A stretch of DNA of 64,000 nucleotides from Agelas oroides. Its lineage: Eukaryota > Porifera > Demospongiae > Agelasida > Agelasidae. The stretch spans positions 9,029,127-9,093,126 of the forward strand of contig OX422185.1 in NCBI GenBank assembly GCA_949130485.1. Direction: 5' to 3'. Made by a program: the position numbers and the translations under genes. Below, in pieces: positions 6,485 through 42,820 of the stretch (positions within the stretch are counted from its first letter, which is position 1; every line of letters starts with the position of its first letter). The notes under the pieces are model-generated. The model was not told where the DNA came from, did no database searches, and saw only the letters and a list, made by a program, of their open reading frames with translations.

Positions 6485-7700
6485 ACCATGGACTGTGCCA
6501 GTGAAGTAGAAGTATATCCAGGGAGCCACGTGCATGATACCTAGTTATGTGTAAATGTACAGGCTTGTGTGTTTTAATGCCTTTGCATGAGGCACATAAG
6601 TGTGCAGGTGCAGAAGGTCTCAGTCTGAGGTTGCACGTGCATGTATCTGTCCATCTATAACTGAAAAATAACCCATTTTCACATGCTATACAAGAGGCAC
6701 ATTTAGCATGATTGTGTATAACTGTGTGTATAAATTGTGCCACTTTGCAAATCTCCAATCTGCACAGGAAAAGAATGGATATTTCTCCTCAAGTGAAAGC
6801 TATTAAAGAGAATGCCAATAACATGGCAAACCTGATCAAGGGAGACCTCATCACTATTGCTAATGACCTGAATCTTGCAAAACTGCTCAGTGAAGAGGGC
6901 TATGATGTAATTGTGAACACCCCAGGAATCTCTCCACTTCAAAGAGCTAATATCCTAATCCAGCGTGTCATCCCTCAAGTCGAGGTAGACCCAGCACAGT
7001 ATGAAGTCTTCTGTGGTGTTTTGGAAAAGCATCTCAACCCAGAAGTTGTGAGAAAGATACTACCAAAACTAGATGGTGAGTCAGTGCTATACTGCAAGGT
7101 CCCTCATTATGGTACGTGAAGATGGAATTTTGTGAATAACTCCACTTCAATGTCCCAGATGGGTTATGTGACCTCCATATTATTTAAATCTCCCGGTCCT
7201 AATATGGCCCTGCCCACTTTTGGGATCACATGATCTGGAATTGGATCGCTAGACACATTTGCTGAAAGACAGTTATTGTACAGACAAGTGATGGCTTTCA
7301 TGCAGAAGGGATCCCATGGTGACCTAATCTGTCATAGCTGTGGAAGTGATTTCATACTACTGCCTCTGAGAAAAAAATGAATGTGTAATTTTAATTAGCA
7401 TACCATGCACGATGAACAGCATTTCTGCTCATAGCTCAAAAGCAGTGGTACAAAATGACTTCCACAGCTAATACATGTCACCTAGGCTTACCTAGTTTTG
7501 AAAAAAAAAGTGGTACAGTTGAAGCAATATATAACCGCCTTTCGCGTTTTTCTGCTATCTCTGGTCCCAGTCCTTAATTCACCTGAGTAGCTATATAGGC
7601 TAAGTGCACTAACCATTATTACCAGCAGATGTACTGATTTTTAGCTACACCGGTGATAGGATTTGAGCGAAGGAGACCATTTTATGCGTAATGTGAATTG
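6485..7700. repeat. Duplicated gene-start segment, copy 1 (partner 56538-57646)
   Basis: This segment is collinear with 56538-57646. Similarity begins at CATGGACTG, covers the splice acceptor, the CARD exon and the donor GTGAGTCAGTGCTATACTGC, and continues through about 600 bases of intron (for example TATTATTTAAAT, GGGATCACATGATCT, CTGCTATCTCTGGTCCCAGT). It stops near 7700 at GCGTAATGTGAATTGT, shortly before the GGGGCGAGC element. Intron similarity this strong implies a fairly recent segmental gene duplication rather than selection on the exon alone. Confidence 0.8.
6768..7075 (+). CDS. Gene A exon 1: CARD-like death-fold domain
   Basis: This is probably the first coding exon of a multi-death-fold protein. 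The acceptor CTGCACAG precedes 6768, the likely start ATG is at 6775, and the donor follows 7075 (GATG then GTGAGT, phase 1). About 100 residues are encoded. The run KLLSEEGYDVIV, then LQRANILIQRV and YEVFCGVLEKH, fits the helix pattern of a CARD, a fold used for homotypic binding in apoptosis and innate-immune signalling; the family call is by pattern, not search. The protein should be cytosolic, with no signal peptide. The acceptor implies at least one upstream exon that may be untranslated. A paralogous exon lies at 56666-56970. The phase-1 end joins cleanly to the exon at 21297. Confidence 0.75.
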
Positions 7701-7739
7701 TCGGTAGCAGAACGTGCGTACGACGTTACGTGTGTAATT
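7076..7739 (+). other. Gene A intron 1, proximal part
   Basis: Intronic DNA shared with gene B up to about 7700. It contains no recognisable exon. The intron as a whole would span 7076-21296 and is filled by the mobile elements listed below. Confidence 0.6.
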
Positions 7740-8699
7740 GGGGCGAGTGCAGCGAGCCTCACACTTGTGGTGAAAATGAAAAATTGTCTATAATATATGT
7801 ATGTTTGTTGGGTACATGCGTATTCCGTATATATACATCCTGCCGCATTTGTGCGCGATGCAATATTTTCATATGCATGTTGGTTCATGTATTACTGTTG
7901 CTCAAGAGACAAGACTAGCAGGACAAAAAGGCTGAACAGTGGGAACCAACGTAAAAGGGACTTGAAAACGGTGAGGAAAGGGAGGCACGACTAGCAAGAC
8001 GGAGACTGATTATTAACGTGCTGTGTGACACTGCCGCCAACGCGGAGTGCTCAGTCAGAGCTTTGTGAGGACCCGAACCACAGAGGTCTACGTGACTCGA
8101 CCAAATAACCCTCGTGAGCAACAGCTACAGAAGAGCTTCTAAAACCCCATACCACATGTACAACTCCAGTAATTGTGCTCTGAAAAGGGCTGACAATATA
8201 GTCTACACCACCCCGACTTCATACCCCATAGCTGATTCCACAGCTCAGCAAATACCCATGCACTATAGACCCTGACTTGAGGAGACAGTGCCAAGATGTG
8301 AATAAGTTGGAGACACAGGAAACCAAGATGTTGAACCCTCATCCTCAACTTGCAACCGTTCAAGCCGCCTCCAAACGCTTTGAGACCTTGTTGCCTGCAG
8401 CAGTAGCTACCATTTCACAGTAATGACACAGAGTGTGTACAATAAACCCAAGATTAGCACATACTCAAGTTATATTGCTCCACAAACACTGGCATACATT
8501 TGATATCCTACATAGTCTCTTCCCCAGGTGTTCTCTGCCTGTAGTTTTTACAGGCTATAGTTGGAGGTGGGGAAGACTTGGGAATGAGACTATTGTTACG
8601 TGAGATGTATGCAAGTGGGAAAAGGTAGTGTATATGGAACGCTAATGCACCATACAACTCCCTCACGCTCGCCCCACAATGCACTGCATTCCCCTAGTA
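7740..8699. mobile_element. GGGGCGAGC-ended element, copy 1
   Basis: The left end GGGGCGAGTGCAGCGAGCC and a right end containing CACGCTCGCCCC (8663-8675) are short inverted repeats, and the shared sequence runs on to CCCCTAGTA. The interior (GAGCAACAGCTACAGAAGAG, GTCTCTTCCCCAGGTGTTCT) repeats in the next copy at 8881-9939. No coding frame is present. Other family members occur at 9951, 49379 and 50828. Superfamily unknown. Confidence 0.65.
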
Positions 8700-8880
8700 T
8701 TGAACGTGTGACGTCACGTACACGAAAAAATCGCTTTGGGAGACGCTGTGAGGGGTGACGGTGGTGTACCTGAGAGCTGTTGGTGTACCAAAGTTTCATT
8801 CAGGGGATGAATACACCATGCCATCAACGAATTTCAACTCAGATTGCGTGTCCAATGCTTCCTCTGGCCTGTGAATTATT
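8700..8880. repeat. Dispersed repeat shared with 25930-26130
   Basis: The stretch beginning TTGAACGTGTGACGTCACGT and running through GGTGTACCAAAGTTTCATTC to GGCCTGTG(A/T)ATTA is repeated in the same orientation at about 25930-26130. It holds no gene. The copy here abuts a GGGGCGAGC element on both sides. Confidence 0.7.
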
Positions 8881-9939
8881 GGGGTGAGTGCAGCGAGCCC
8901 CACACTTGAACGGAAAATTGTCTATAATATATCAGAGAGTCGGTAGACTTTCTATATAGGGATGGCGCGGACATGCAATATATACAATACTTAAGCAAAA
9001 GCCATGAAACTCAACCAGAGAGGTCTGTGTGACTCGACGAAATAATCATCCCTCATGAGCAACAGCTACAGAAGAGCTTCTAAAACCCCATACCACAACT
9101 CCAATAATTGTGCTCTGGAAAAGGGCTGACTGTGTGACAGGGACTTGAAAATGGTGAGGAAAGGGAGGTGCAACAAGCAAGACGGAGACTGATTACTAAG
9201 GTGCTGCGTAACATTGCCGCCAACGGGGAGTGCTCAGTGTATTAAAGACAGAGCGATTAGCTTGTGAGGACCTGAACCAGAGAGGTCTGTGTGACTCGAC
9301 GAAATAATTATCCCTCGTGAGCAACAGCTACAGAAGAGCTTCTAAAACCCCATACCACAACTCCAATAATTGTGCTCTGGAAAAGGGCTGACAGTGTAGT
9401 CTGCACCACCCTGACTCCATACCCCATAGCCGAGAGAATCCTGTTTCCACAGCTGTATGTGCTCAGCAAATATCAATGCACTATAGACCGTGGCTGAGGA
9501 GACAGTGCCAAGATGTGCATAAGTTGGAGACACAGAAAACCGACGGAATATATTTGTTCGTACAAAGATGTTGAACCCTCATCCTCAACTTGCAACCGTT
9601 CAAGCCACCTCCAAATGCTTTGAGACCTTGTTGCCTGCAGCAGTAGCTACCATTTCACAGTAATGACACAGAGTGTGTACAATGAACCCAGGATTAGCAC
9701 ACATACCCAAGCTATATTGCTCCACAAACACCGGCATACATTTGATGTCCTACATAGTCTCTTCCCCAGGTGTTCTCCGCCTGTAGTTTTACAGGCTACA
9801 GTTGGAGGTAGGGAAGACCTGGGAATGAGACTATTGTTATGTGACATGTATGCAAGTGGGTAAAGGTAGTGCTATGGAACGCTAATGCACCATACAACTC
9901 CCTCACGCTCGCCCCACAATGCACTGCATTCCCCTAGTA
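8881..9939. mobile_element. GGGGCGAGC-ended element, copy 2, with internal duplication
   Basis: Starts GGGGTGAGTGCAGCGAGCCC and ends with CACGCTCGCCCC followed by CCCCTAGTA at 9939. Within it the block AGAGGTCTGTGTGACTCGAC through TTGTGCTCTGGAAAAGGGCT occurs twice (about 9017-9129 and 9278-9390), so the copy carries an internal duplication. It is non-coding. Confidence 0.65.
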
Positions 9940-9950
9940 ATATACTTATT

Positions 9951-10345
9951 GGGGCGAGCGCAGTGAGCCCCACACTTGTGGTGAAATTGGAAAATTGTCT
10001 ATATCTATCTATCTGTATATATATATATATATATATATATGGTACGTGCGTATTCCGTATAATTATACATTCTGCCCTATTTGTGTGTGATGCAATATTT
10101 CCACATTGCACATTGTATGCGCTCAGCAAATATCCACTATTGATACTTGAGAAGACAGTGCCAAAATGTGAATAAGTTGGAGTCACAGGAAAATATACTT
10201 GTTCGTACTAAGATATTGAAGCCTCATCCTTATAACTTGCAACCCTTCAGGCTACCAGCCAACCCAATATGAGCACACACCCAGCTACATTGCTCAATGA
10301 ACACTGGCATACATTTGATACCCTAGTGTCTTCCCTAGGCATTTC
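9951..10345. mobile_element. GGGGCGAGC-ended element, copy 3, truncated
   Basis: Starts GGGGCGAGCGCAGTGAGCCC and shares interior blocks with copies 1 and 2 (AGACAGTGCCAA, GAATAAGTTGGAG, CTGGCATACATTTGATA), but similarity fades near 10345 and no CTCGCCCC end is present. A pure TA/AT microsatellite lies at 10017-10040. Confidence 0.55.
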
Positions 10346-11037
10346 CCGCCTCCAGTTGGGTCAGCCAATATATGCATGCAGCAAGAGAGTGGCTGTAAAT
10401 GTGGATCAGCATTGCAAGGTCCAAGACCCACGTTGGTACTTCTACTTTGGCCAAGGCACATTTGATAATTAGTGTATATTCGTGCAACAACAGAGTGGCT
10501 ATGGGTGTGGCTCAGGCCCAAGACATTTGCTCAAGAGCATTGTAGGTTATGGTATTGTTGTTGTAAACAGACAACAGCATTCTTACACCTATCTTGAAGG
10601 TGGTCATGATTGATCCATGAGTGGTATAGTTCATTTGGCATTTGCTGCACAGTTCAGCCTCACCACCACTGGCATCAGCCCATAGAAACCAACCCAGGTC
10701 CTCAGAAATTGTGACAAATGTTTTCACAACCTCTGCTCTCGTGAAATACCAAGAGATACTCATGCATGCCCTTTTTAATTGTTCTTGGGACAGAACCCAA
10801 GTCTCAGGTAACCGGGGGGCTCTTTCAGTCTCGGTCAAAGTTCTGTTGTACGCGAGTCTACGGAAGGAGAGCTGAACGCACGCCCCCGAACGTGTATGTG
10901 TATACTTAATCACATGTGCCTACAACCTGAATTCTTGTGGTAATGTCACTAAATGCCATAATGACATTAATGATGTAACCATAGATAATATACCTATGAT
11001 GTAACCCACCTGCCTCTTGACTGGGGGATCACCCTGA
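10346..11037. other. Unassigned stretch with one unexplained minus-strand frame
   Basis: The minus strand is open for 133 codons over 10512-10913. It includes a tryptophan- and cysteine-containing part (SISWYFTRAEVVKTFV, then ELCSKCQMNYTT) that looks more protein-like than neighbouring frames, but I recognise no domain. It could be a decayed exon or transposon piece. The rest shows no gene. The right part may be the 5' region of the Gypsy remnant that resumes at 14479. Confidence 0.3.
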
Positions 11038-11046
11038 CCAGAAACC
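11038..11046. repeat. Target duplication CCAGAAACC, left
   Basis: CCAGAAACC here is repeated exactly at 14470-14478 and flanks the inverted ends of the element 11047-14469. Nine-base duplications are characteristic of Mutator-like transposons. Confidence 0.8.
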
Positions 11047-11291
11047 GGGTCACTCTAAAAGTAGGAATGAGGAAATGAGAAATGGGAAATGGGAAACGAG
11101 GAAATGAGGAAATGGGAAGAAAGCACATTGCATTTTACTCAGCAAACTGCTGACATTTTGTTACTGCAGTCATCAAATATTATGTGCGACAAAAAAGTCA
11201 ATGTCCATCCAGCATTTATTGAGATCATCTATACCTTACAGTTTGCACCAAAGGGGTATATACGTATCATGGCGTACGGTAGTACGCCATA

Positions 11292-12955: not shown

Positions 12956-12979
12956 TACAAAAAACAAAAAACACCAGGA

Positions 12980-13770: not shown

Positions 13771-13771
13771 T

Positions 13772-14389: not shown

Positions 14390-14469
14390 CGTTGCTGTCT
14401 CCATTTCCCCATTTCTTCATTTCCCCATTTCCCATTTCCCATTTCCCGTTCCTACTTTTAGAGTGACCC

Positions 14470-14478
14470 CCAGAAACC
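14470..14478. repeat. Target duplication CCAGAAACC, right
   Basis: Exact copy of 11038-11046; marks the right border of the Mutator-like insertion. Confidence 0.8.
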
Positions 14479-15468: not shown

Positions 15469-17967
15469 TCAGATAACATTGCCTGAAGACCTGCGCACCA
15501 ATAATGCCACCATGCATGTTTCACATGTGTCACACCCAATCCAGCTGTCCGACTCAGCATCCGTGTAGACCTGTCTCACAACAAACTTCATCATCCTGTC
15601 TCTGTGTGGCTGTTTTGGTAGCCAACTCTCCTTGCTTTCGTGACTTGCTAGCTTGTGCATTCTTTCCTTTCTTTCCACAGGTCTTCTTTTTGCAGCTCTC
15701 TCTGCATCTGTACGTTCAATTCTCTCCACCACTTCATCACTCGTCAATACTCCCCCAACGCAGCTCAGCTGAACTCTGCGATGCCTCTTGGTTTTCCGCT
15801 GCCCCTCAGCTGGCTTCAATACTTCACAAAAATAGCCGCGGAGCTCAGCACGTATTGGTGTTTCAAAATGGTGCAGTGTCAGTGTGGCAGTGAACTTGCC
15901 CTCAGTGATTTGGTCTGCCGATAGTCCTTCTGCAACCACGGATGGGGCAAGCTGAGAGTGTTTCACTGCTTTTGGATTAAATGGCACAAGTCCTGCTGCT
16001 CTGAAACCGCCTTGCAGATGCTCGGCTGTGATACATCTTTCCCACAGTTGCTTAATGAGGCTAGGGAAGACCTCCTTGGTTATGTTAGTCGCCTTAGTCT
16101 TGGGTGCGCCATCGCTGCTTCACGGGTCCAAATACACCCACATCAAGAGGATGCAACACATGAGTTGTGTTGGGGGTTAAACAGAATAGATGAATCCCCA
16201 AGGTGCATGCCTTTTTAATGAGGCTAATGCTCATATGTGAAAAGTGGCCGTCAAAGAACAGGACTACTGGGCCTGTTGCAAGGAGGTGTTTGACGGCAGG
16301 GTAAAATTGTAGCTCAAGCCATTTCAGATAGTTGAACTCTTCCATCCACCCTGATTGACTTACACCATAGCATGCCGCAGCTGGACCCCCTTTTGTCCAT
16401 GTGTCATACAGATGCTTACCCTTGTATAGAATAAAGGGTGGAAGTTTGACCCCAGCTGCACTACCACACACACTGACTGTAATAAATTCATGATCCAACA
16501 CTCCTCCCACCTCATGCACAGAGCGACAACCACGTCTTGCAAGGATTTTCTTGCTTGCTGAACCCAAGCAAAATCCTGTTTCATTGCTATTCCATATCCG
16601 AGACGAGTAATCAGCAACCGGGCCACTGCGCTTCATCAATCCAACCTTTTTAAGAAAGGAAGTCTTGACAGTGATGAACCAGCTGTTGAGCATCTCGGGA
16701 CATGCATCCATTGCTCGCTTGGTGGAGAGGTGCTGAGGTTTTTTCTCTGAGAGGGAAGGCCATCTTCCTAAGAAGCCTTGCCACCAATCCGGATCAGGAA
16801 CACCATCCTTGAAAGGAGATGACCTCTTCTTGTCTTTCAAGAAGGTAGACACCACATCAGTGACAATCTTCCTTGTGAGACCATAGCCAAGCTCCTGCAG
16901 CACCTGACAGGTCACAACTATTTCCAGTGGCGGATTTAGGGGGGTAAGGGGGGAGCAAATGCACCCCCTTTGGCGGCTAGTAATGTATTTTGCGTACATA
17001 ACTGCACGAGTCCATCAAATGATTATGCAGCAGTGGCATGCAGCAACAACAACCAGGCACAGTTACACATTCACGTATCAGTTCCTTACTGATCTCCAGA
17101 TGTTTGACTAGGCCTAGAGTTGCTTCGAGATATTCAGTTCGGCCCGAGGGGTCCGCCACAGCACGCCTCGGCGTACGAGATTTCGAAATCCACTGGATTT
17201 CACGTGGATTTCGGATTTCAGAGTGGATTTCTGGATTTCAGAGTGGATTTCTGGATTTCAGTTTGGATTTCTGCCAACAGGTTTCTTCTTGTATGTTCTC
17301 GGATATTTTAGTTATAGTTCCCAGCTTAGCAAAAAATTTTACTTAGCTGTAGTTTTGGTTAACTAAGCAAAAAAGGCCATACTAAAATGTATTTAGTTAT
17401 ATAGTTAACTAAAACAACACTGTCGGACAGTGTACGAGATTTCTTTTGTGACAGACCCCTCGGTTCGGCCTTCCAGCTATATTATTGTATGAATGCGTTC
17501 ACGTGACCGAAAGTGGGCGTGGCAATCCAAAAACTTCCGGCGTGCTTTGTGCGCCGGTGAATGGACCCCCCTTTCTAAATTTCTAGATCCGCCACTTCTC
17601 CTCTACTGGGGTCAAGACGGTGGGTCTTCCAGCACCAACCTTGCCCACTTTCCCTGCAATTACAATTGTTATACATTTACTGATGTTTTGACCTGACTCT
17701 TAATTCAGTACTGTAAGCAATTTCTATTTGATTCAGAATGTAGTATGTAATGTAGACTACTAGTTTAATCCTTGTAACAGTGGATGCATGCACTACTTAC
17801 CTGAGCAGTGATCATGCAGAGTGCTATAAGGTACTCCAAATGCTTTGGCAGCATTTCAAATGCTTTGGCAGCATTTCGAATGCTATGCCCCTCACTAACA
17901 GCTTTGGTTGCAGCCTGGATTGCTTCCTCCCGCTCTTCAGAGGCCCTTTTTTCTTGGCTCGGGGCAT
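15469..17967 (-). pseudogene. Pogo/Tigger-like transposase (psq HTH + CENP-B + DDE), inactivated
   Basis: Exon 1 (17967-17801) encodes a Pipsqueak-type helix-turn-helix (EEAIQAATKAVSEGHSIR). A 20-base duplication (ATTTCAAATGCTTTGGCAGC repeated near 17845-17880) shifts its frame. An intron follows, with donor CAG/GTAAGT and acceptor GCAG at 17654. Exon 2 begins GKVGAGRPTVLTPVEE and is interrupted by a MITE (16926-17596). It resumes with a CENP-B-like DNA-binding stretch and the DDE_1 catalytic core (16094-16920). The first catalytic site reads IWNSNETGF, with N where the family has D; the second (FFDGHFSH) and third (LHPLDVGVFGP) aspartates are present. A frameshift near 16100 moves the C-terminal part to 15469-15987. 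It cannot act as a transposase. Confidence 0.8.
16926..17596. mobile_element. hAT-like MITE (AGTGGCGGATYTAG ends) inside the transposase gene
   Basis: The left end AGTGGCGGATTTAGGGGG and the right end TAGATCCGCCACT are inverted repeats. The insertion splits the transposase exon between the codons for PVEE and IVVTCQ. A 20-base tandem repeat (GATTTCTGGATTTCAGAGTG type) occupies 17198-17275. No clean target duplication is visible and the edges look eroded. Ends of the AGTGGCGGAT type are common in animal hAT-like MITEs, hence a tentative label. Confidence 0.65.
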
Positions 17968-18503: not shown

Positions 18504-19665
18504 CCTCATTGTTCGCTGTGAGAAACCAGAGGTGTGACCCAATCCTCAGATATGTATGCATTAATCAGGTGCCATTGAAGATGGAGTTGGACACAGGTGC
18601 AGCTGTCTCCGTAATTACTCAAGGAACTTATCAGAAAATTGCCCAGCAAAACCACATCCAGCCTCTCCAACACTCTGACCTCAAGCTGAAGGGGCCTGAC
18701 CTCATGGGCAGAGACTGGTTAAGGGACTTAAAAGTAACCCTTGGAGAACTTCATGCCCTAGGAGACTCCAGTGCACTGCAGGAAGTGCTAGAAAAAGCAT
18801 TCTAAACTTTTTTGCAACGAGCTGGGTTGCCTGCAAGGAATGAAGGTGAAGCTAAATGTGGACTGTGATGCAACACCTAAATTTATCAAGGCACGTACAG
18901 TGCCGTTGGCACTAAAAGAGAAAGTGGAAACCGAGTTAGAAAATCTGGAAAGCATGGGTCCCCAGTAGAATCTTCAAGGTGGGCAGCACCTATTGTCCCC
19001 GTACTCAAACAGAATGGTGCAGTCACAATTTGTGGTGACTATAAGGTCACAGTCAACCAAGCCTGCCTCATAGACTCCTACCCACTGCCACGAGTGGAAG
19101 AATTACTCGCTAGCCTCTCCAGTGGAAATCTTTTTTTCAAAACTAGACATGTCCCAGGCGTACTTGCAACTCCCCTTGGACGAAGAGTCCAAAGAGTATG
19201 TTACAGTGAACACTCACAAGGGGCTATACAGATATAACAGGCTACCTTTCGGAATTTCATCTGCTCCCTCCATCTTTCAGAGAACAATGGAAACCCTGTT
19301 GCAAGGAATCAAGGGAGTATTGGTCTACATCGATGATATTCTCATTACAGGACCAACTATCAAAGAGCACCTGTCTACACTCAACAAGGTTCTTGAGAAA
19401 CTGAGTGTGGCTGGTCTGAGGCTGAACAAGCCCAAATGTTTTTTCTTGCAACCCAGCATTGAGTACTTAGGCCACATTATTGATAAGGATGGATTGCACC
19501 CAACCGAAGAGAAAGTACGAGCGATTAAAGAAGCACCGAAACCACGGAATATTAGTGAACTACGGTCGTTCTTCGGAATCATCAACTATTATAGTCGTTT
19601 CCTACAAACCTGTCAATGAAACTGGCTCCCCTCTACCAACTGCTTGTCGTTTCTTGCTGTGTTGT
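18504..19665 (+). pseudogene. Gypsy-like protease and reverse transcriptase, truncated
   Basis: Continues the Gypsy element cut by the Tigger insertion. The aspartic protease active site is visible as LDTGAAVSVI near 18588. A deletion then joins its middle to the GPDLMGRDWL linker, and a stop follows at 18805. Reverse transcriptase spans about 18835-19650: FSKLDMSQAYLQL, LPFGISSAPSIFQR and the catalytic YIDD at 19326-19337, then FGIINYYSRFL. There are frameshifts near 18960, 19130 and 19610. Similarity ends about 19665; RNase H, integrase and the 3' LTR are missing. This is a different lineage from the minus-strand Gypsy at 36240-38664. Confidence 0.8.
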
Positions 19666-21296: not shown

Positions 21297-21611
21297 GTTC
21301 AGACCGTGCTGCCATTCTCCAGTTTGTGAGGAATGCCTGCCGTCCTCACTTTGATCATGGCAGAATGGTTGCATTTGGTCACTACCTTGGGATTGAACCT
21401 TCCTATGTGACGCAGATGGTGGATATACATCGTGATGATCACCAGCAGTTTCTGGTGGAGGTCATACATCACTGGCTTCAGAAACACCCAGAGCCTAACT
21501 GGCGGGAACTGGAGATCGCTATGTATCGTGTACTGAGAGCTCATCCATTGGACTATCCACCACATCAAGCAGTCCATCATGCACTGGAGACTCTGAGGAA
21601 AGAATATGAAG
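21297..21611 (+). CDS. Gene A exon 2: Death-like domain
   Basis: The acceptor is TGATTAG before 21297 and the donor is GAAG then GTTAGT after 21611; both borders are phase 1, so it joins to the CARD exon without disturbing frame. It encodes about 105 residues. The pattern FGHYLGIEPSYVTQMVDIHRD, then FLVEVIHHWLQK and NWRELEIAMYRVL, fits a six-helix Death domain (LG-x-E-x(3)-V followed by W-L and W-x-x-L). Such domains mediate homotypic assembly of signalling complexes in the cytosol. It could alternatively be a DED-type death fold. No paralogue is seen elsewhere in the window. Confidence 0.75.
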
Positions 21612-22249
21612 GTTAGTCAAGTTGTGGTAGGTGGGAGCACAAACTGCAAGTATAACCAAACTAAAACTTGTATCTAGCTTGGATGTTTCACAAACTGAAA
21701 TTTTCATATGGATATCTATCTATCCATATATATACCAAGTTAGTGTGCCATATCGAGTGTTATTGCATTTCACGAAGTGCAAATGCAGCCCACGAGTGCA
21801 ATAAATATTGCATGCTAACTCGTGTAATAAAATATTTATGATTACCACAACACCGTTGTGTCTTCTCATGCAAGTACCGAGTAACTCACTGTTCGAATGC
21901 ACTGGTTCTAATTAAAGCAGATTGTAGTTGCTAGGATACCACTTAGCCCCAGGGCCCATGCAAGATCGTGTGATATTGCATGGCACGGGAGTAGGAAAAT
22001 TGATAATATTCTTTCCTCAGAGTCTACATTGCACGATGGACTTCAGAATGTGTCATATATAGAAAGTTTCAGTCCCAGATCATTATCACGATAGTGCAAG
22101 CCTTTATTGGAAAAATCACAGTTACCTAAATTTGTTGCTAGTGGGATTGTAATTTGTGGGACTGCCACACATCGCCGGAATCTACCTTAGTCCTGAATTC
22201 CTGCCTAGCGGTGGTGTCGCACAGGTGGAACTGACAAGGAGACGGTCGT
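21612..22249. other. Gene A intron 2, proximal part
   Basis: No exon recognised. Around 21755-21835 there are repeated CACGAGTGCAATA-like words in both directions, related to a stretch near 34515-34560. Confidence 0.4.
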
Positions 22250-22320
22250 GCGTTGGATTCTCAATTCACCGGGCCAAGTTCCGTCGTGGAAAACCCTGAT
22301 GGTTTGTCCTGTGGCTGTTA

Positions 22321-23730
22321 CTTGCTTCGTGTAACATTGAACGATGCCCTGGCCCAAAGTATAGTGAGTCCTCTTGTGTTGTTTGCTGCAAGCCAGTCAT
22401 CAGCGAAGGCATCTGGTGCACTGCTTGCCATAAATGGTGTCATCCCAATTGTGCCTGGGTCAGTGATGAGGAATATCAAAAACTAGGTAATTCTCCAGAT
22501 GACTGGTTTTGTCCAGGTTGTTGCCTCCCCAGTTTCACAAGTTCCTTGTTTGAATCTCCGATAGATGTGCCTGGGTGTAGCCCATCTAAATCCTTCCCTG
22601 CCATTGACCATAGACTGAAAATCCTCTACACTAATTGCAGAAGCCTTTTCCCCAAGCTTGATTCCCTGTGTGCAGCTGCAGTCACAGACTCTCCAGCTGT
22701 AATAGCCCTAACTGAATCGTGGCTAGACAAGGATATTGGAAATGCAGAAATAGCAATTCCACGTTATCAGTCTGTTCGTCGAGACCGGAACAGACATGGC
22801 GGGGGGATTATCCTTTATGTTAAGGACAACATTTCTATTTCTATGCCTCAATACCATGATACTCTCGAGCTACTCTCAGTTGAAATCAGTCTTCACCATC
22901 ATAAACTCCTACTAATTCTATACTATCGTCCACCCTCCACTACAGCCGAAGACCTGTCCCTTCTCGAGTCGTATCTTGAGACCATCCCTCCAACTTTACT
23001 CTGTTCAGCTATCCTTCTAGGTGACTTCAACATCAACCTCCTCTCACCTAATCATACCTCACACCAACTTTCCTGTCTCACCTCCAAGATGAACTTCACT
23101 CAGGTTGTTCAGCAACCCACCAGAACCTTCAACACTTCCAGCTCTCTCATTGATCATGTCTACCTAAATGACCCTGAATCTCTTGATTATTGTGAAGTTA
23201 CCCCTCCGCTTGGCTCTTCAGATCACAACTGTATCCTTGTATGCATAAAACGTCCTCCTCGTTCCGTGAACTCCAAACGACGTACCATCTGGAGATACAA
23301 TCTTGCAGACTTTGATACAGCCAACAGTCTCCTCTCCCAAATTCCATCTGAACCTCTACAGCCCAGTGACATTGACTCTTCCTGGACCCAATGGAAGGAC
23401 ACATTCTTATCCATAATGTCTCAGTGCATTCCAAACAAAGTTGCTTCAATCAAGAATGAGCCACGCTGGCTCACCAGAAAAATAAAACTTCTCATCAAAA
23501 AGAGGTCCAGGTTGTTTCAACAAGCGAAAAGAGGTCACAATCCTCGTGTGTGGAAGAAATATCAATCCACCAGGAATAAGATTGTCTCTGCGGTCAGATC
23601 AGCTAAAGCCACATACCTGAGAAATTTAACTAATCAGTTGAATGCTCCTAAAGACTTTTGGTCCCACTATCACTCAGTCAAATGCTTACCATCTCGCATA
23701 CCAGGTATCTTGCATAATGGCTCGAGCTGT
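22321..23730 (+). pseudogene. LINE PHD finger and endonuclease (EEP family)
   Basis: The frame opens at 22321 with a cysteine-rich PHD-like finger (CVVCCKPVISEGIWCTACHK, then WCHPNC and WFCPGCC). Endonuclease follows from about 22615: YTNCRSLFPK, ALTESWL, GGGIILYVK, YYRPPS, GDFNINLL, LIDHVYLN and SDHNCI, which are the usual Mg-dependent nuclease motifs used to nick target DNA. No stop interrupts it from 22321 to about 23730, where a frameshift moves the continuation to the next frame. A clean start codon is not evident and an in-frame stop lies just upstream near 22297. Confidence 0.85.
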
Positions 23731-25422
23731 TTCATCCACAACCACTCCCTCCAAAGCCAACATGTTAAACGAATATTTCTGTTCTTTTCTACACCCAAAA
23801 CTTGGTTTTAAACCAGGTACCCCATCAATATCAGCTCCTTCACTTTCCTCTATTACCTGCTCTCAGGAGTGCATACAGAAGTTTCTGTCAACCATGAAAA
23901 CCAAAACTGCATCTGGTCCTGATAACATATCCACTCACATACTAAGGAACACTGCCAGATCCATATCACCATTTCTACACAAACTGTTCAACTTGTCCTT
24001 ATCCACTGGTCGGCTTCCTTCTGAGTGGAAAGTTGGAATATTACTCCAATTCCCAAAGGTGGAGATGCATCACAATGCCCCAACTATCGACCTATCTCCC
24101 TCTTATCCCTTGTATCCAAAATTCTTGAACGCATCATCCACAATCAACTACTAAATTTTCTACTAAAGTACTCCTTTATTTCTCGCTTTCAGTTTGGCTT
24201 CCGTCAAAACAGCTCCACACAGGAAGCCCTCCTTCATCTGACCAATGAATGGCACCAGCAACTCGACTCTGGAAATCATGTTGCTGCCATCTTTTTTGAC
24301 CTATCAAAGGCTTTTGATACAGTTCCACATCATCTCCTCTTGGAGAGCTTGCAGCGTGTCGGAGTCAGTGGTTCCCTCCTTACCTGGTTTGAAGATTACC
24401 TATCTGGCCGGTTTCAATGTGTGGTCCTGGATGGTCACACCTCAGCTGCTCTCCAAGTCACATCAGGAGTTCCTCAGGGGTCTATTCTCGGGCCACTCCT
24501 CTTCATCATTTTCATGAATTCCATCTTTGATGTAGTTCTGAGTAGTGGCTCAAAAATCATTCTCTATGCTGATGACATGGTTCTGTATAAGCCCATCAAG
24601 AACAATCAAGACTTGCTTGATCTCCAGATTGATATCGACACAATTTGTTCATGGACCTCTACCAATTGCTTGCACCTGAATGCCACAAAGACAAAGAGTA
24701 TCCTCATAACACGCAAGAAGCACAGACCCATCCTGAACTTTTTTGTCGGGAGATATCCCATTCCTTCAGTAACATCTCTGAAGTTCTTGGGAGTCGTGAT
24801 TACAGACAACCTGTGCTGGTCATCCCATATTTAAAGTACTTGTCTAAAAGCAAAGAAACAGCTTGGGCTTATCCACCGACACTTTCATCAAGCTCCTAGG
24901 GTTGCCCATGAGAGACTATACAAGTTCACGGTTCTCCCACACCTTGACTACTGTGGATGTGTTTGGGATCCCCACCAAGCAAAGTACAAGGAGAAATTGA
25001 ACTCTGTACAGGCTTTTGCCTCAAAAGTTATTCTGCAGAACTGGACAGCTCCTCGGCAACAAAGACTCTCGATTCTGAAATGGCCATGCCTTGAAGACTG
25101 ACGCAAAGTACAAAAATTAATCATGTGCTCCAAGATCATTAATGGTCGATCTTGCATTCCACCAAGTACTTTTTCTCAGCACCCTTACCCGTCACTACGG
25201 CATTCTCATAGTTTTCCTTGGTTTGCACCACAGACTCATTCAGTTTCTCATAGATCTTCCTTTTTTGTATCTGTTGTTCCTTTGTGGAACTCTCTGCCCT
25301 CAACTATTCTGTTTGCATCTTCAGCTGTTACCTTTAAGTCCCATGTTGTTATTAATTCTGTCTCTTTACTTATTCTTGTGTATTGTTCTTTTCTTTTGTT
25401 ATTGGGGAAGCCCTTGAATTAG
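23731..25422 (+). pseudogene. LINE reverse transcriptase
   Basis: The frame first continues as SKANMLNEYFCSFLHPKLGF and MKTKTASGPDNISTHIL, then shifts again near 24040 to the main domain. Motifs: CPNYRPISLLS, FGFRQNSSTQEA, FFDLSKAFDTVPHHLL (motif A), GVPQGSILGPLLF (motif B) and the catalytic YADD at 24565-24576. Stops lie at 24832-24834 and about 25099-25101; similarity continues past them (PHLDYCGCVWDPH, VPLWNSLPS), showing the stops are mutations and not the natural end. This enzyme would copy LINE RNA at a nicked chromosomal site. Confidence 0.85.
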
Positions 25423-27258: not shown

Positions 27259-27304
<46 letters not shown>

Positions 27305-28450: not shown

Positions 28451-28511
28451 GTTAGTAAAAGTGCTACACATATCTCAGAGAAGAAAGGTTTATATTTAAA
28501 CTACGACGTAG

Positions 28512-30949: not shown

Positions 30950-31500
30950 GTTCTCTTGAAGGAGTGAAGGTGATTGCAGTCTCAGAGTTCACAGTTTCCG
31001 CCCAAGTTACTGACTTTGAATGGGAGGGATATGGATTGAGACTCCATGTTCCAGAAGGAAGCCTGCCAGGTGGCATGGAAAAGTGCATGGTTAACATCAA
31101 AGCAAGTCTCTCTGGGAAGTTTCAACTGCCTGAAGACACAATCCTTCTGAGCCCTGTCTTCTGGATCTCAGTACCATGCAAATCTACAAAGCCAGTGACG
31201 CTGGAAATCCAACACTGTGCTCTCAGGGAAGATGAGAAAGTCCTGTCAGGTCTCAGCTTTGTCTCTGCCGAAGACTCTCACAAGAACCTTCCCTACAGGT
31301 TTAAGCAGTTGGATGGAGGAGTGTTCACCATGCGGAGTGCCTATGGTACTATTCAGCTGAGGCATTTCTGTGGAATTGGTATCATTGGGCGTATGTGCAC
31401 CCCCCGGTCATACTGTGTACATGTGTATCATGCTATGGAACGGCTTAATAAATGGATATACTACCTTGCCATAACACAAGATCATCCGATACAAAACAAT
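30950..31500 (+). CDS. Gene A exon 3: ZU5 domain and start of UPA
   Basis: Acceptor CTGTCACAG precedes 30950 (phase 1) and donor AACAAT then GTAAGT follows 31500 (phase 0). It encodes about 184 residues. The ZU5 signature is visible as YGLRLHVPEGSLP near the start, then ILLSPVFWISVP and KPVTLEIQHCALRED, ending about residue 150 at FCGIGIIG. The last part (YCVHVYHAMERLNKWIYYLA) is the first strand set of a UPA domain, completed by the next two exons. ZU5-UPA-Death modules occur in UNC5 receptors, PIDD and ankyrins, where ZU5 can cover and silence the Death domain; that the same holds here is inference. Confidence 0.87.
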
Positions 31501-32758: not shown

Positions 32759-32927
32759 TATTTGCTGCAATGCTTAACAGGAATCAATGAACGTGCAGTC
32801 CCAGTGTAATTGTGAAATGGACAAAACAATTCACGTATGATAACAGACCTACGTAATTTCTTTGCAAATGCATGCCTGGGTACTTGCATATGCTGTAAGT
32901 ATGGATCTTTTCATTACTGCATTGCAG

Positions 32928-33077
32928 GCTGTGAAGAAAGAATTTTCTTCTACTGCAAAGTTTCAAACATCATCGCTAGTTGAGTTTCAGGAGAATGAGA
33001 TTACTCTTGGTATTCCTGATCGTGAGAAGCTCAACCAAGAGGGTTGGAAAATAACTGAAGTGTCCTCACCTGCGATT
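32928..33077 (+). CDS. Gene A exon 4: UPA domain, middle
   Basis: Acceptor GCATTGCAG and donor ATT then GTAAGT; both borders phase 0. Fifty residues: AVKKEFSSTAKFQTSSLVEF, then ENEITLGIPD and EGWKITEVSSPAI. The order 'VK-x-F ... I-x-L-x-IP ... GW-x-I' is the usual core of UPA, a beta-rich domain that follows ZU5 and packs against it. The spliced product continues into the exon at 34821 as SSPAI-IARTDADKFHY, which keeps the UPA pattern intact. Confidence 0.75.
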
Positions 33078-34820: not shown

Positions 34821-34992
34821 ATTGCTAGAACAGATGCAGATAAATTTCATTATGAAGGACAGTGTATCCCTCGATGTGAGCTGATGGTGGAGTGGAAGAG
34901 AGAGGGAAAGGCACAAGCTCCACTGCAACTTAATATCATCTTGAATGGAGCCAGAAGACCCAGGAATTTGAATCTTGTCTTGGACCCAGAAG
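34821..34992 (+). CDS. Gene A exon 5: UPA domain, end
   Basis: Acceptor GATTGTTTAG (phase 0) and donor GAAG then GTAGCT (phase 1). Fifty-seven residues: IARTDADKFHYEGQCIPRCE, then LMVEWKREGK and LNIILNGARRPRNLNLVLDP. This fits the last strands of UPA (D-x-F ... IP ... V ... L-x-L). The phase-1 end joins to the terminal Death exon at 42510 across a 7.5-kb, transposon-filled intron. Confidence 0.75.
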
Positions 34993-36239: not shown

Positions 36240-36245
36240 ATAAAT

Positions 36246-36663
36246 ATTCAAACACATACATATAAGAAAAAAAAGAGTTCATGAAATGTTCAGCAAGTAG
36301 TTCATATCACTCAGTTAATGAGACTTACTGTTCATAAACATTCTGTCCATATCGTCTGGTTGGTCTCCGGTCACGTCTGAGATATCGGTGTGGATCAGGT
36401 GACTCATTTCGTGGAACAGTTTCAGCATTATCCTCAGGCAATATGTCAATATATATTCAAACACATACATATAAGAAAAAAAAGAGTTCATGAAATGTTC
36501 AGCAAGTAGTTCATATCACTCAGTTAATGAGACTTACTGTTCATAAACATTCTGTCCATATCGTCTGGTTGGTCTCCGGTCACGTCTGAGATATCGGTGT
36601 GGATCAGGTGACTCATTTCGTGGAACAGTTTCAGCATTATCCTCAGGCAATATGTCCAGAATC
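36246..36663. repeat. 209-bp tandem duplication at the Gypsy pol 3' end
   Basis: ATTCAAACACATACATATAA at 36246 recurs at 36455, and the following 200 bases (GAGTTCATGAAATGTTCAGC, CGTCTGGTTGGTCTCCGGTC, TCATTTCGTGGAACAGTTTC) are nearly identical. The unit covers the C-terminal codons of the minus-strand integrase frame. Confidence 0.9.
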
Positions 36664-37713
36664 ATCAGATTGCGGACTAGGGTATCGAGAATTAATCTTC
36701 TTGAAATAGGAGACATTATGAGAAAATACTTTCCGTTTGAGGATGCCATTATCATTGTTCCCTTACGTCTCACCACAACAACCGGGAATGGATCAAACTT
36801 AGTTGACCACTTGTTTTGCTTTCTTTGACGGATCAACAGTGTCTCCAACTCGAATATTAGAGACTCTTGCTCTGGATCTCTTATCTGCATTCTCTCCTTT
36901 GCTCTTTCATCATTCTTTTGGACAGTCTGATCAATGTCAGAATTTCTCTTCGTCGAGATCTGGGGACGTTTCGTCTTGATCTTGCGATTGAACAACAGTT
37001 CAGATGGAGCAAAACCAGTTGTACTGTGAGGGGTAGCTCGATAGGTTAACAAAAATTGATAGAGATCCTTTTGCCAATCTCTACCATCAGCATGTGGTGC
37101 TTCGATCGCTTTAGTGACTGGCTTCAGGAAGTTCTCTGCTTCGGAATTTGCCTGGGGCCGTAGAGAAGTAATTCGTGAGTGCTTTATTCCTTTCTCCTCC
37201 ATGTACACCTTGATTTCTTCACTTGCAAATGGTGGACCGTTGTCACTTTTTCCAACTCTCGGAATTCCATGTGTGGCAAAGATTCTTTAGTATCGTTGAG
37301 TGGGCTGCTGTGGAGTGTACAATTTCAACTTCAGGATATCGAGAATAGGCATCGATGACTACAAACAAATATTCTCCTGTCGGGAATGGACCACAAAAGT
37401 CCATGTGGACAGTGCACCATGGTTCTGGAGGTAGGGGAGACATCTGAAGAGGGTCTGGACGATTTTCAGGATCACTTGCTTGACACAAGACACACTGATT
37501 TATCATCTCCTTCACGTCATGATCAATTTTTGGGAACCATATTTTCTCACGCAACAACTTCTTGGTCTTTACGAGGCCTTGATGACCTTCGTGGGCTATG
37601 GATATGGCTCTCTGACGAAGTGAGTTTGGCATCACTATGCGATTACCACGCAGAATGACATCTGCGTCTTGGCTCACCGTCAATTTGTCTCTGATTCTGC
37701 CAAATAACTGCAA
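36534..37713 (-). pseudogene. Gypsy-like integrase, frameshifted
   Basis: Reading leftwards from 37713, the HHCC zinc domain appears (IAHEGHQGLVKTKKLL, then INQCVLCQ). The catalytic core follows: HMDFCGPFPTGEYLFVVIDA with the first D, and after a frameshift near 37230-37290 the third acidic site in RPQANSEAENFLKP. The C-terminal part (YRATPHSTTGFAPSELLFNR) ends at 36534. Integrase would insert retrotransposon cDNA into the chromosome; this copy is broken. Part of a Gypsy element lying antisense in intron 5 of gene A. Confidence 0.85.
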
Positions 37714-38664
37714 CTCTGTTAGATCGACTCCTTCAGGTGTGTGGTCGGCATTTGTTTCCCACTGATCATCTGTATGAGATGTTGTAATGTTCTGTCATCT
37801 TTGGTGTATTACTGAGAAATCGTACCCTTGAAGTCGTAGGTTCCACCGTTCAATACATGCAGGTGGTTTCGACTTCAGATAGTCAAAGATCAACTGAACT
37901 GGGTGGCAATCTGTGAAGAGGGTGAAGTGTCCGCCGTACAGGTATATGTGTAGCCTTTCTATGGCCCAGACTAATTGCCAAGCTAGGCTTCTCTCTTGGT
38001 TTGTGAGTACTGGCGTTCCACTGGAGACAGCGATCTGCTTGCATATGCAACAACTCTTCGATCCTCTTGTCCGGAAGTTTTCTGAGTTAGGATCGCTGAT
38101 AGACCCCAAGGTGATGCATCAGTGAACAATTCCGTTTCCTTGATTTGGTCAAAGTAAGCCACAACTGTGTCACTGGTCAGCAATTGCTTAATTATTTTGA
38201 AAGACATCTTGTGCTCCTCTGTCCACCGAAATGGAGTGCCTTTTCTTGTTAGCTCGCGAAGGGGCTGAGAGACATCACTACATTTTCGGAATAAACCTAG
38301 CACAATATGTTGCCATTCCCAGAAAACTTCTGACACCACTGGCGGGGGTTGGTGGACTGGCATTGTGGATTGCTTGGACCTTCTTTGGATTGGGAGAGAT
38401 TCCTTCGGCTGAAAACACAAATCCGAAGAATGCCAGTGAGTGCTTATTGAACTCACACTTTGACTTGTTCAGCATCTGACTTGTTCAGCATCAGCCTGAC
38501 ATCTGAAAACTTCTGGAACATCGCTTGCAGGGCTTTGTCATGGGCATCTTGGGTTTTTGTGAACACAATGACATAATCGCTGATGTTCAATACTCCTTGA
38601 ATGTCACGAATTTGCTCATTGATGGTGTTCTGAAATATCTCACTTGCTGAATTGGTACCAAAAT
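37714..38664 (-). pseudogene. Gypsy-like reverse transcriptase end and RNase H, truncated and frameshifted
   Basis: From the right: reverse transcriptase remnant (NSASEIFQNTINEQIRDIQG, then ISDYVIVFT where the family has two adjacent aspartates, so the catalytic pair is lost). Next come KSKCEFNKHSLAFFGFVFSA and GVRSFLGMATYCARF. The RNase H region follows: ELFTDASPWGLSAIL, YASRSLSPVERQYSQTKREA and, in a further frame, WAIERLHIYLYGGHFTLFTD. Frameshifts lie near 38000 and 38330-38460. The element is cut off abruptly at 38664, where the R1 repeat begins. Confidence 0.8.
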
Positions 38665-40075
38665 TTTAGGAATAGTAAGAGAAAAGAGAGATGGGATGGA
38701 GGCCAAGGGGAAAATGCATGGTTTGTAAAGTAAAAAAGTATAGAACTTTGTTGTTCAAAGGAACCACGAAAGAGTTGTCGTAAACATCGGAACATTAAAC
38801 TTCTTTATTTAGGTTAGACACCAAACCATAGAAATCTATGGGATTTAGAAGCCCAAGAAATACCTTGTATAATACCTAAGTGCAAAGCGTGCATTTCATG
38901 AGGCTTTATGCAGGCATTATAAATCCCTTAGATCTCTACACTGCGATGTCAAACCGATTTAGACCATGGCTACTTACCGTCAAACTGTTACTGCAATGGT
39001 GTCTTACAACTTGGTATTACGTGACCTCTGTTGGGATGAAGTCTACAGAGAGTTTTTCTGTGAACCCAATAGTAGTCCACGTGAATTGGGAGCAGCTGAG
39101 CAACTGCCCGTTTCAGCAGCTGCCTCCTCGAGTGCAGGAGTTTTGAATGAAGCCAATGTTAACTCACTGCTACTAGCTGCACTAAAGCAGTTCGAGGACC
39201 AAGCTACCGTTCGGCTGCTACGGAGGGATATGAAGACTTAGGCACAAGGATACTTTTGATGTAAATGACCAAAACAAGCAAATTTGAAATTTGAAAATGA
39301 AATAGTTAGTGTTCTAAGTTGCCAGCTGGTGTTCTAAGTATCAGGTACCTAGTGTCTAGGTGAGTTACAGGCCTATATAGCCATTGACCAATCAGGTTCC
39401 AGAATGACTTCCAGCTTTAGTCTGAATGGAAGTAGAAACTGCTGCCCTTGCTATTAAGTACATGTGCTCATTGTGTGGAGTCCTAACATACATTTTATTT
39501 ACAGCAGCCCCAACAATACATACTTCTCCTGGAAGCATGCACAGATCCTCTCTCTACATTTTGCGTTGTGCCACCTGACCTTGGCTGTTGCAGTCTTCAC
39601 ATAGGTCAGCTGCTGCTTCTTATCGATGATATTATCTAAACACGTGCTCAGTTGAGCTTCCGGGGCGTACCTGCTATGAATAATATTATAATCTAACAAA
39701 ATGGTGTAGGTTACCTGAAAATCGCCGACTAGTTCGAGTTCTTTCTTTGAGAACGATAGGTGGTGAGTACAATACCTGATGATTTATGCTGTTCTTTTTG
39801 TGTGTGAATCATTGTAATAGCTTCAGCCGTTGTCGTGCTATCGTGATGGAGAAAAGAAAGAAGAAAGTAGACAATTTGCCCGTTTTAGCAACTTGCCGGT
39901 CTGGCACTTTAGCGATGCTTTCCAGCACAGTTAACGATCCTGTTGCCCATGGAAGCACTCGATAATGCCTGATATGGCTCATGGAGGCCGTTGACTGATC
40001 TAACGCAGACATTTCAAGTGGGTCATTTGTGCACTTTTAATGTGGCCGCCATTTTTATCGGGGTCATCCCTACAT
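38664..40075 (+). mobile_element. Repeat family R1, copy 2
   Basis: Inverse of 11292-12955. One end is CTATTCCTAA/TTTTAGGAATAG against the Gypsy pol remnant, the other is GGGGTCATCCCTACATA at 40061. A 91-codon frame at 38966-39238 is open here but stopped or inverted in copy 1, so I do not call it a gene. No terminal inverted repeat or target duplication is clear; the class is unknown. Confidence 0.6.
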
Positions 40076-40080
40076 ATTAC

Positions 40081-40358
40081 ACAAGACTTGAAAAAACATT
40101 AAAAATGTAAAAGGATGTAGGGATGGCATGCCAAAAAGCATGCAAACAAGGTAGGGATGATATAATAGTGAAGGTAAATTAACAAAGCCTCATCCCTGCA
40201 TCTTTTTCACATTAGTTTGCAACTGTAATGTAAAAAGATGTAGGGATAGGGCTTTGTAAATTTACCTTCACTATTATATCATCCCTACCTTGTTTGCATG
40301 CTTTTTGGCATGCCATCCCTACATCCTTTTACATTTTTAATGTTTTTTCAAGTCTTGT
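40081..40358. mobile_element. 278-bp near-perfect palindrome, GTAGGGATG family
   Basis: ACAAGACTTGAAAAAACATT at the left is mirrored exactly at the right. Arms of about 125 bases contain GGATGTAGGGATGGCATGCC and AAGCATGCAAACAAGGTAGG. It directly abuts R1 copy 2. It is non-coding; single strands would form a long hairpin. Confidence 0.85.
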
Positions 40359-41327
40359 TTCTGTACTTTTTTGATGTTAATCTCAGTTACAGTTAGACCT
40401 AAGCCTATGAAGAAATTTTTCTTTCAAAACTTGAAACGGGATTGACAATTTAGTAGTGGTTCCAAGCATATGATAACTTTGCCAGCTAGAATCTGATGAG
40501 GGCCAACCACTCTCCGGAGCTTCGCACGATAAACCGATCTCCTGAATGTGTGGCCTGACGACTGACCAGCTGCAGCACAGTTTACTAAAGCTGTGAGTAG
40601 CTACTTTATTTAGTGTAGCTATAAGTTAGCAGCTGAATGCAGCGCCTTACCTGTGTGGCGTTCGTAAACCTTGCCCACTACGGGAAGAGACCGTGCCGGC
40701 CGTGCGCGTGGTCCACTCGCGATTTCGCTCGTGCACTAGCCTCGTTCCCAAACAATGTGATCGTGGTATTTGGCCTGGGAACGAGACTACATGTGCGCAT
40801 GCGTACAACATTAGAAAATGGCGTCCTTCGCAACGGACAGCAACCACAGAGTGTTGTGAATGGCTTTTATCGACCAGGGTGAATTTGAGACTATGAAGAC
40901 GCTGAGTGGTTGGGAAGCTGCGCACTGTGATGAGCATCCGTTTCGTGCTAAAATCAAGGTGAGTGCTTGAACCGTTTTTGAGTTATCGTTGTTTGAACAA
41001 AAGTCGTAACAAGAAAGAAAGAAAGAAGAATACGAAAAATGGCACTTTTGCTATCGCACACTTTTGTGTTTAGCTGTCTTCCGCGTGGCTTTTGGCCACT
41101 TATATGAGTCTTGCTGATCACAAAGGCACTCAAAGAGGAAGCCTGGATGCTTAAATAAACTTTTTGCGTGTTTGTGGTGAAGTTATACGGCTTTTGCTTA
41201 AGTATTGCATATATTGCGCGTCGGCGCCATCCCTACATAGAGAGTCTACCGACTCTCTGATATGGCGTACTACCGTACACCATGATAACAAAAAAGGACC
41301 AATCACGTGGGATATTTTACAGATATA
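40359..41327. other. Gene A intron 5, mid part
   Basis: 40359-40470 is related (inverted) to 4673-4790. A 53-bp hairpin, TAGCCTCGTTCCCAAA to GGCCTGGGAACGAGACTA, sits at 40737-40789. CATCCCTACATAGAGAGTCT with the palindrome AGAGTC(T)ACCGACTCTC at 41231-41262 echoes 8936-8960. No exon is recognised. Confidence 0.45.
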
Positions 41328-41453
41328 CCACAGGCTAACGTGGTTACAGGATATACACAAGGCAGTTATTCCATAATTTAGAAGCCAAGGCGTAGCCGAG
41401 CCTTCTAATTGGATAACTGCTGATTGCTATCCTGTGACTACGCTAGCCTGTGG
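41328..41453. mobile_element. 126-bp foldback repeat
   Basis: CCACAGGCTAACGTGGTTAC and ACAGGATATACACAAGGCAG at the left are mirrored by TATCCTGTGACTACGCTAGC and CTGTGG at the right, around the centre GAAGCCAAGGC / GCCGAGCCTTC. No target duplication found. Confidence 0.6.
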
Positions 41454-42509
41454 TTTAACTAGCGTGTACTACACAATACACATGGTTTCACTGTGTGGCC
41501 GGCGGCCCGGCGCTATCAAATTTATATAAATAGTACTATACTACATACGGCTTCACTGTGCGCTCAGCGCTGTCGAGTTTAAACTTGCTGCAACTCAGTT
41601 GTGCTCTTTGCCGAGGCGATGGCTCGTTTGGCTAGGAAAGACGTGGTTTCTCCATCTCTGTTGGCATGCATCGACCCTAATTGGAACTTACACGATGGCG
41701 TTTAACTACTCTAATTGGTACTTGTAAGTACTCCTTTTGGTTTACAGTATATAAACTCAGCGCGGTGACTTTAATCCACCCACGCAGTGTAGTACAAATA
41801 ATAGTTATGAATACACTGCTTTTTGACAAGTACATTTCTGTTTAGCTTTGCGTGCACTCTTAAGCCACTGAAACATAGGTTGTGATATAAATTGGGACCT
41901 CACATTGACAAACACTGCAGAGTACTGGGAGCACATATAAAGTATCAATAGCTAATGTCTCATTGGCGAACACCTGTTAGAACTCGTGTAGTACAACAAT
42001 AAAACCACAGTGGGATTGTGCAGACAAAAGATAAACAGATCCATCTAGTATTTCTTACATGGCAGTGACAGTCTTGTGCAGATAATAATTGGATTGTAAT
42101 TGACAATGAATTTGGTATTTCTAGCATGAGAAATTTGGCAGTGGCAGTCTCTGTTATTTGTTTCCACTCTGCAGGCGTAGTAGCATCTCCACCAACAGAT
42201 GCTTATGCATTACATACCATCTAATGCACCTCCCTCATACCTCGTATTTTGCAGCACTTATATTTGAGGGAATCGTTTGTGTGTTCTGTTCTGCAGGAGC
42301 ACTTGCAGCATCAGCTTGCTCCACCACAGCCAATATATTTTGTGAGTCTATATTGAACTACACAATTGTGTACATACAAAACATCATGTGAATGAACGCA
42401 TATAGAATTTTGCAATGTTTTATAATTAGTATTCATTACAAGTACACTGTGTTTGTTATAGCACATGTGCTGATGTGTGCTATAGGTTATCTTCTCTCCT
42501 TCCTCACAG
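41454..42509. other. Gene A intron 5, end
   Basis: AT-rich, no exon recognised. The acceptor before the last exon is strong: TTCTCTCCTTCCTCACAG. Confidence 0.5.
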
Positions 42510-42820
42510 CAATGAAGCCAACACTGACACAGCTGACAATAATGAAGACAATAAGAGGAGAGAAGATCAAGATCATTGAGTCGGTGGCACCACAATGGAA
42601 AAAACTAGGAGATCTCCTTGATTTTGACCCTGAAGGCCGAACTCTTGAGCTCATTGCAGCAAACAACCAGCTGAACGATGTTGTTGCATGCTGCCGAGAG
42701 ATGTTTGTAACCTGGTTGAAAGGCAATGGAAGGGAGGCCACCTGGGAGGTGCTTATTGAACTGCTTGATGATAATGACCAATCAGAACTTGCCAAGAAAA
42801 TCAAAACTGCCCTTCAGTAG
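42510..42820 (+). CDS. Gene A exon 6: C-terminal Death domain and stop
   Basis: Acceptor CTTCCTCACAG (phase 1) leads into about 103 residues ending with TAG at 42818-42820. VAPQWKKLGDLLDFDPEGRT (helices 1-2), then VVACCREMFVTWLKGNGREA and TWEVLIELLDDNDQSELAKK (helices 4-6), are a clear Death-domain pattern. A Death domain directly after ZU5-UPA and at the very C-terminus is the arrangement of UNC5 and PIDD, where it binds partners such as RAIDD or DAP kinase; the partner here is unknown. Adding this exon makes the total coding length 1800 bases, exactly 600 codons with the stop, which supports the chain of exons. Confidence 0.87.

Follow-up and report, generated by a model that had tools for sequence, protein, structure and literature searches.

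The window analysed here is a stretch of 64,000 nucleotides from the sponge Agelas oroides (contig C3:9029127-9093126; the assembly comprises 141 contigs and 259 Mb). Its main feature is a set of six exons on the forward strand (6775-42820), which probably form one gene with the domain order CARD–Death–ZU5–(UPA)–Death. All exon borders are GT/AG, the phases are 1,1,0,0,1, and the spliced frame comprises 1800 bases with the stop (ATG 6775, stop 42818-42820), encoding 599 residues. This check of borders and frame bears out the original prediction, which had claimed six exons with the same phases and lengths.

Exon 1 (6775-7075) carries the ATG and a CARD domain, and ends in a phase-1 donor; exon 2 (21297-21611), with phase 1 at both borders, carries a Death domain. 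Exon 3 (30950-31500) encodes a ZU5 domain and, at 31363-31371, the motif HF|C, in which the codon TGT at 31369-31371 specifies Cys346. Exons 4 (32928-33077) and 5 (34821-34992) are presumed to be the first and second parts of a UPA region, and exon 5 ends in the phase-1 donor GAAG|GTAGCT. Exon 6 (42510-42820) contains the C-terminal Death domain and the stop.

A Pfam scan of the 599-residue chain found ZU5 (3.3e-6) and the last Death domain (2.3e-6) and no other domain, which confirms two of the labels given by the original prediction. The UPA label follows from position only; Pfam UPA had no match in six segments. The labels of exons 1 and 2 agree with the predicted structures, a six-helix CARD fold and a Death fold, while profile support is weaker than structural support and neither exon has a Pfam match in the chain. 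In one of the profile searches behind these two labels, CARD11 came third (E 0.78), after two unrelated matches. The full chain gave a single weak match in a sequence search of the PDB, to THO complex subunit 1 (E 0.046), and the ZU5–UPA profile matched only ZO-1 there, at E 0.5.

The ZU5 core and its self-cleavage motif

Twenty-nine relatives of exon 3 were collected from the same genome, each read with 1.5 kb on either side. Exons 4 and 5 each have a counterpart in 26 of them, and exons 3, 4 and 5 occur together in 24. The acceptor phase of exon 3 is as expected in 28 of the 29, and the expected phase is kept in every testable relative for exon 4 (24/24) and exon 5 (25/25). Of the 26 relatives with a counterpart of exon 5, all have a phase-1 GT after it, and in 19 this donor reads GAAG|GT; the donor of exon 3 is less uniform. 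That the three exons recur together, entry phases included, in 24 of the 29 relatives shows the ZU5 core to be a genuine gene, one member of a large local expansion. The ratio of nonsynonymous to synonymous change (dN/dS) of exon 3 is 0.40 against each of the relatives L011 and L012, and that of exon 6 is 0.20, 0.26 and 0.31 against three relatives, so both exons look constrained.

The genome contains at least 150 matches to exon 3 (all 150 scored, of 175 candidates), some of which are fragments, and 80 Pfam ZU5 matches among 122 candidates. Death domains gave 870 first-look candidates, and all 150 of those scored lie above the curated cut-off. Within 1.5 kb of the ZU5 exon, a Death exon is found upstream in 15 of the 29 relatives, downstream in 17 and on both sides in 12. 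In the relative L013, short near-identical repeats (VQNSPDCQE) follow the N-terminal Death exon at about 1000-1379 in gene orientation, possibly as a linker exon.

The original prediction had also not recognised the architecture from any named family. The gene is instead a shuffled member of the large ZU5/Death expansion of this genome, which carries the PIDD-type HF|S motif, and the novelty of the order is qualified further by two other loci with Pfam CARD exons just upstream of ZU5-like exons. The ZU5-like exons of these loci are C8:3193610 and C2:896998, which resemble exon 3 at E 2.2e-11 and E 8.4e-36, respectively, and are not among the Pfam ZU5 matches; the CARD exons precede them on the same strand at distances of 1.3 and 2.9 kb. 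By a simple count, uncorrected for the clustering of immune genes and for fragments, about 0.05 such pairs would be expected (P ~0.001). At two further loci the CARD lies downstream of the ZU5 on the same strand, by 4.4 kb for C23:573572 (Pfam CARD) and C23:568904 (ZU5), and by 8.9 kb for C14:3289919 (Pfam CARD) and C14:3280814 (ZU5); these are possible ZU5–CARD genes in the order of CARD8 and NLRP1.

At the end of the ZU5 domain, the alignment of the 29 relatives has Ser in all 29, preceded by His and Phe in 28 each. The window gene alone has Cys (HFC), encoded by TGT, whereas the relatives use TCT (25) or TCC (4). Both the PIDD-type self-cleavage motif HF|S and this Ser-to-Cys difference had been overlooked by the earlier reader, although proteins of this domain class are usually regulated by self-cleavage. 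According to PMC3210808, HF/S of PIDD and SF/S of CARD8 and NLRP1 are self-cleavage sites in which the Ser is essential, and Ser, Thr or Cys can serve as the nucleophile in such reactions. The conserved HF|S, together with these known sites, suggests by analogy that the ZU5 family of this genome is probably self-cutting. The window gene is a natural Ser-to-Cys variant, with a site that may be active or not. No counterpart of the catalytic His upstream of the site in FIIND was identified at the sequence level in the alignment of the relatives. The change at Cys346 and the ZU5 expansion are the most interesting parts of the analysis.

The CARD and Death exons

Pfam CARD had no match in exon 1, nor anywhere inside the window in a genome-wide search, and it matches weakly in four of eight members of the exon-1 family. 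The CARD module of exon 1 has 13 copies in the genome, all open and without stops. Its donor GGTGA is also present in six of the seven other copies read, L006 being the exception. An acceptor-like CTGCACAG lies just 5' of exon 1, and the same or a similar sequence occurs upstream of its copies, which suggests an upstream non-coding exon. Against four copies, the dN/dS of exon 1 is 0.91, 1.02, 0.69 and 0.95; with all 13 frames open, these values may mean that a recruiting domain is changing fast or diversifying, or that the constraint on it is relaxed. At two loci other frames lie near copies of exon 1. In L064 a NACHT–LRR frame begins about 2 kb downstream of a copy. L062 has two copies that face each other, and the interval between them holds a STAND/AAA-type frame and a frame of the phosphorylase superfamily, the latter below the cut-off.

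One copy of exon 1 lies within the window, at 56673-56970 on the forward strand, with 74% identity, and probably starts a neighbouring CARD–Death gene. Its likely Death exon is L063 (C3:9093136-9093438), just beyond the end of the window, which ends in a stop. Together they probably form a RAIDD-like gene. A third tandem CARD exon (L002, C3:9114279-9114575) is located about 21 kb past the end of the window.

A genome search for relatives of exon 2 gave none at E 0.001. Profile comparison places this exon closer to the C-terminal Death type than to the N-terminal type of the ZU5 family. Its origin as a copy of the usual N-terminal Death exon of the family is disfavoured by the hhalign probability of 0.3 and by the different exit phase. 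With the Death exon of the neighbouring gene it gave no useful BLAST match, and the two have no detectable sequence relation beyond the fold.

The nearest relatives of exon 6 (87, 83 and 76% identity) are Death exons away from ZU5 exons. The acceptor region of exon 6 is common to its near relatives, several of which have no internal ATG; a stand-alone gene starting from an internal ATG of exon 6 is therefore disfavoured. One frame from each of seven of the ten loci with exon-6 relatives was scanned, which revealed Roc or COR in L054, L055, L056 and L059; L061 yielded a weak Roc below the cut-off, L052 a protein kinase and L053 nothing. At L055 (7352-9700), the only such locus, ankyrin repeats, Roc and Death share one open frame, an order that we take to be DAPK-like without the kinase. 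At the other loci the Roc, COR or kinase frames and the Death exons would likewise belong to one gene.

One gene or several

The order CARD–Death–ZU5–(UPA)–Death in one gene is the simplest reading of the six exons, and we hold it with moderate confidence. It requires that exons 1–2 are spliced to exon 3 and exon 5 to exon 6, as we infer. In its favour are the fit of frame and splice sites, the borders of exons 3–5 kept in relatives, the folds of exons 1 and 2, and the two Pfam CARD exons ahead of ZU5-like exons on C8 and C2. The family also often has a Death exon ahead of its ZU5 exon; Pfam detects two such exons on the same strand for L018, at distances of 2.5 and 3.6 kb, and one for L024, at 1.8 kb. 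In addition, C23 carries a Death exon with 73% identity to the one of the neighbouring gene, and its domain is directly followed by a phase-1 donor (AAAAG|GTAAGT). This indicates that a Death exon in this genome may be an internal one that exits in the same phase as exon 2, although exon 2 resembles the exon on C23 in fold only.

The one-gene status is nevertheless likely rather than proven, as the exons would also fit two adjacent genes, one CARD–Death and one ZU5–Death. Exons 1–2 would then encode a RAIDD-like protein of about 206 residues, and exons 3–6 a ZU5–(UPA)–Death protein with an unseen first exon. We regard this arrangement as possible, though somewhat unlikely, and several observations speak for it and against a single gene. 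An in-frame TAG (21614-21616) lies just past the donor of exon 2, overlapping the possible donor, and would be read if the donor were unused. Downstream of the tandem CARD copy at 56673 comes a Death exon of phase 1 that ends in TAA, and a neighbouring CARD–Death exon pair that ends in a stop makes this rival serious. No other copy of exon 1 has a ZU5 match within 100 kb downstream, among 150 of the 175 exon-3 candidates and the Pfam ZU5 matches, and L011 has no CARD or Death match (E < 0.1) in the 5.5 kb upstream of its ZU5. The introns on either side of exon 2 are 14 and 9 kb long. In the relatives, the N-terminal Death exons have exit phase 0 and are apparently joined to the ZU5 through a linker exon. 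On the other hand, exon 3 needs an upstream exon of phase 1, and a search with a local Death profile gave no alternative candidate from 21.6 to 31 kb, in frames of at least 30 residues.

The splice sites were scored against 82 acceptors and 76 donors of the family, the acceptors being mostly ZU5-family sites. The acceptor of exon 2 (21297) is the weakest of the gene, with a score under all 82 family acceptors that is reached by 31% of the AGs of the window. The acceptor of exon 3 stands at the 9th percentile of the family acceptors, and the donor of exon 2 (AAG|GTTAGT) at the 24th percentile of the family donors. An alternative AG six bases inside exon 2 would preserve the frame.

A case that overlaps with the one-gene reading is a correct but incomplete chain, which lacks at least one short linker exon, either between exons 2 and 3 or ahead of exon 6. 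Relatives seem to have linker exons between the N-terminal Death and the ZU5, but exons 2 and 3 are phase-compatible without one, and we consider this case doubtful.

It is improbable that exon 6 comes from another gene and that the true last exon was lost or remains unseen. In the ten loci with exon-6 relatives, each covered to about 9.4 kb upstream, exons 3–5 have no match (E 0.05), as this alternative would have it. However, the phase-1 acceptor of exon 6 fits the phase-1 donor of exon 5, and the stretch from 35 to 42.5 kb, whose frames are retroelement-like, gave no further Death exon with the local profile. The C-terminal Death exons of the family members L014, L021 and L025 also differ clearly from the common family type, and a swapped exon 6 fits with this. 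Finally, a decaying locus, with transposon-filled introns, dN/dS values of 0.69–1.02 for exon 1 and exons still open by chance, is very unlikely, given that all six exons are open, exons 3 and 6 look constrained and 13 of 13 copies of exon 1 are free of stops.

Transposon remains were recognised by Pfam matches in six of ten frames scanned. These are an endonuclease and a reverse transcriptase (22300-23808 and 24025-24831, forward strand), presumably of LINE type; another reverse transcriptase (19074-19616, forward); a DDE transposase (16097-17014, reverse); integrase fragments (37246-37794, reverse); and a GIY-YIG frame (59999-60370, forward), which looks Penelope-like to us.

Proposed function and known systems

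As a single gene, the six exons would have been built by exon shuffling within the large PIDD/FIIND-like ZU5 family of the genome, and their introns swollen by transposons. The encoded protein would be an adaptor of the cytosol with the order CARD–Death–ZU5–(UPA)–Death. In its resting state, the ZU5 together with the region behind it may hold the C-terminal Death domain, and such an autoinhibitory clamp is a reasonable idea by analogy. Cleavage at His-Phe|Cys346 through an N-to-S acyl shift would free the C-terminal part, which may seed assemblies of Death domains. At the other end, the CARD–Death unit may recruit CARD partners such as caspases, with a putative cell-death or immune output. If the Cys made the site slow or dead, release could occur by unfolding without cleavage, and a Cys346 that does not cut could make the protein a standing clamp that blocks its relatives. 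We infer this release from the mechanism established for PIDD, NLRP1 and CARD8. The natural Ser-to-Cys difference allows a direct test of the cleavage chemistry.

Every module of the window gene is already known. No description of the CARD–Death–ZU5–Death order, of the Cys nucleophile or of the HF|S expansion was found in the accessible text of the literature searched, outside which most subscription papers lay. If the reading is correct, an animal lineage outside the well-studied models has multiplied a probably self-cutting ZU5 module while shuffling CARD and Death domains around it, which would make the sensor logic of PIDD, NLRP1 and CARD8 an old and re-usable design. The expansions of NLRC/NLRD and TRADD-N described for sponges in PMC12909245 and PMC8195603 are similar in being lineage-specific and in shuffling domains of the Death superfamily, and fusions of UPA-ZU5 and of FIIND to TRADD-N are reported in the latter. 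The accessible text of these two papers holds no description of the ZU5 family of the window or of its HF|S status.

With the FIIND (ZU5–UPA) of NLRP1 and CARD8, the window gene shares a cleavage motif near the C-terminal end of the ZU5 and death-fold partners, but it ends in Death and not in CARD, has HF|C and not SF|S, and no NACHT was found in its exons. UNC5, UNC5CL and the ankyrins have the order ZU5–UPA–Death. The ZU5 ahead of a C-terminal Death domain is common to them and to the window gene, whereas Pfam found no ectodomain or ankyrin repeats in the 599-residue chain.

RAIDD/CRADD is a CARD–Death adaptor, an order matched by the predicted folds of exons 1–2 and by the neighbouring gene at 56.7 kb, while the window gene probably continues into ZU5–(UPA)–Death. 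PIDD1, with the order LRR–ZU5–ZU5–UPA–Death, forms the PIDDosome with RAIDD and caspase-2. The window gene resembles it in the ZU5 and the C-terminal Death domain, and its relatives do so in HF|S; it differs from PIDD1 by HF|C, by a single ZU5 found, by the additional N-terminal CARD and Death domains, and by the leucine-rich repeats, none of which appeared in the Pfam scan of the chain at E 1. We suggest, as a less probable reading, a single-chain PIDDosome-like scaffold, in which a RAIDD-like CARD–Death part is joined to a PIDD-like ZU5–(UPA)–Death part with a Cys nucleophile, and which may either cut itself through a thioester or act as a non-cutting regulator of its presumably self-cutting relatives. 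If the six exons are one gene, the joining of CARD–Death to ZU5–Death in one chain would bear on the possible origin of the two-protein partnership of the PIDDosome.

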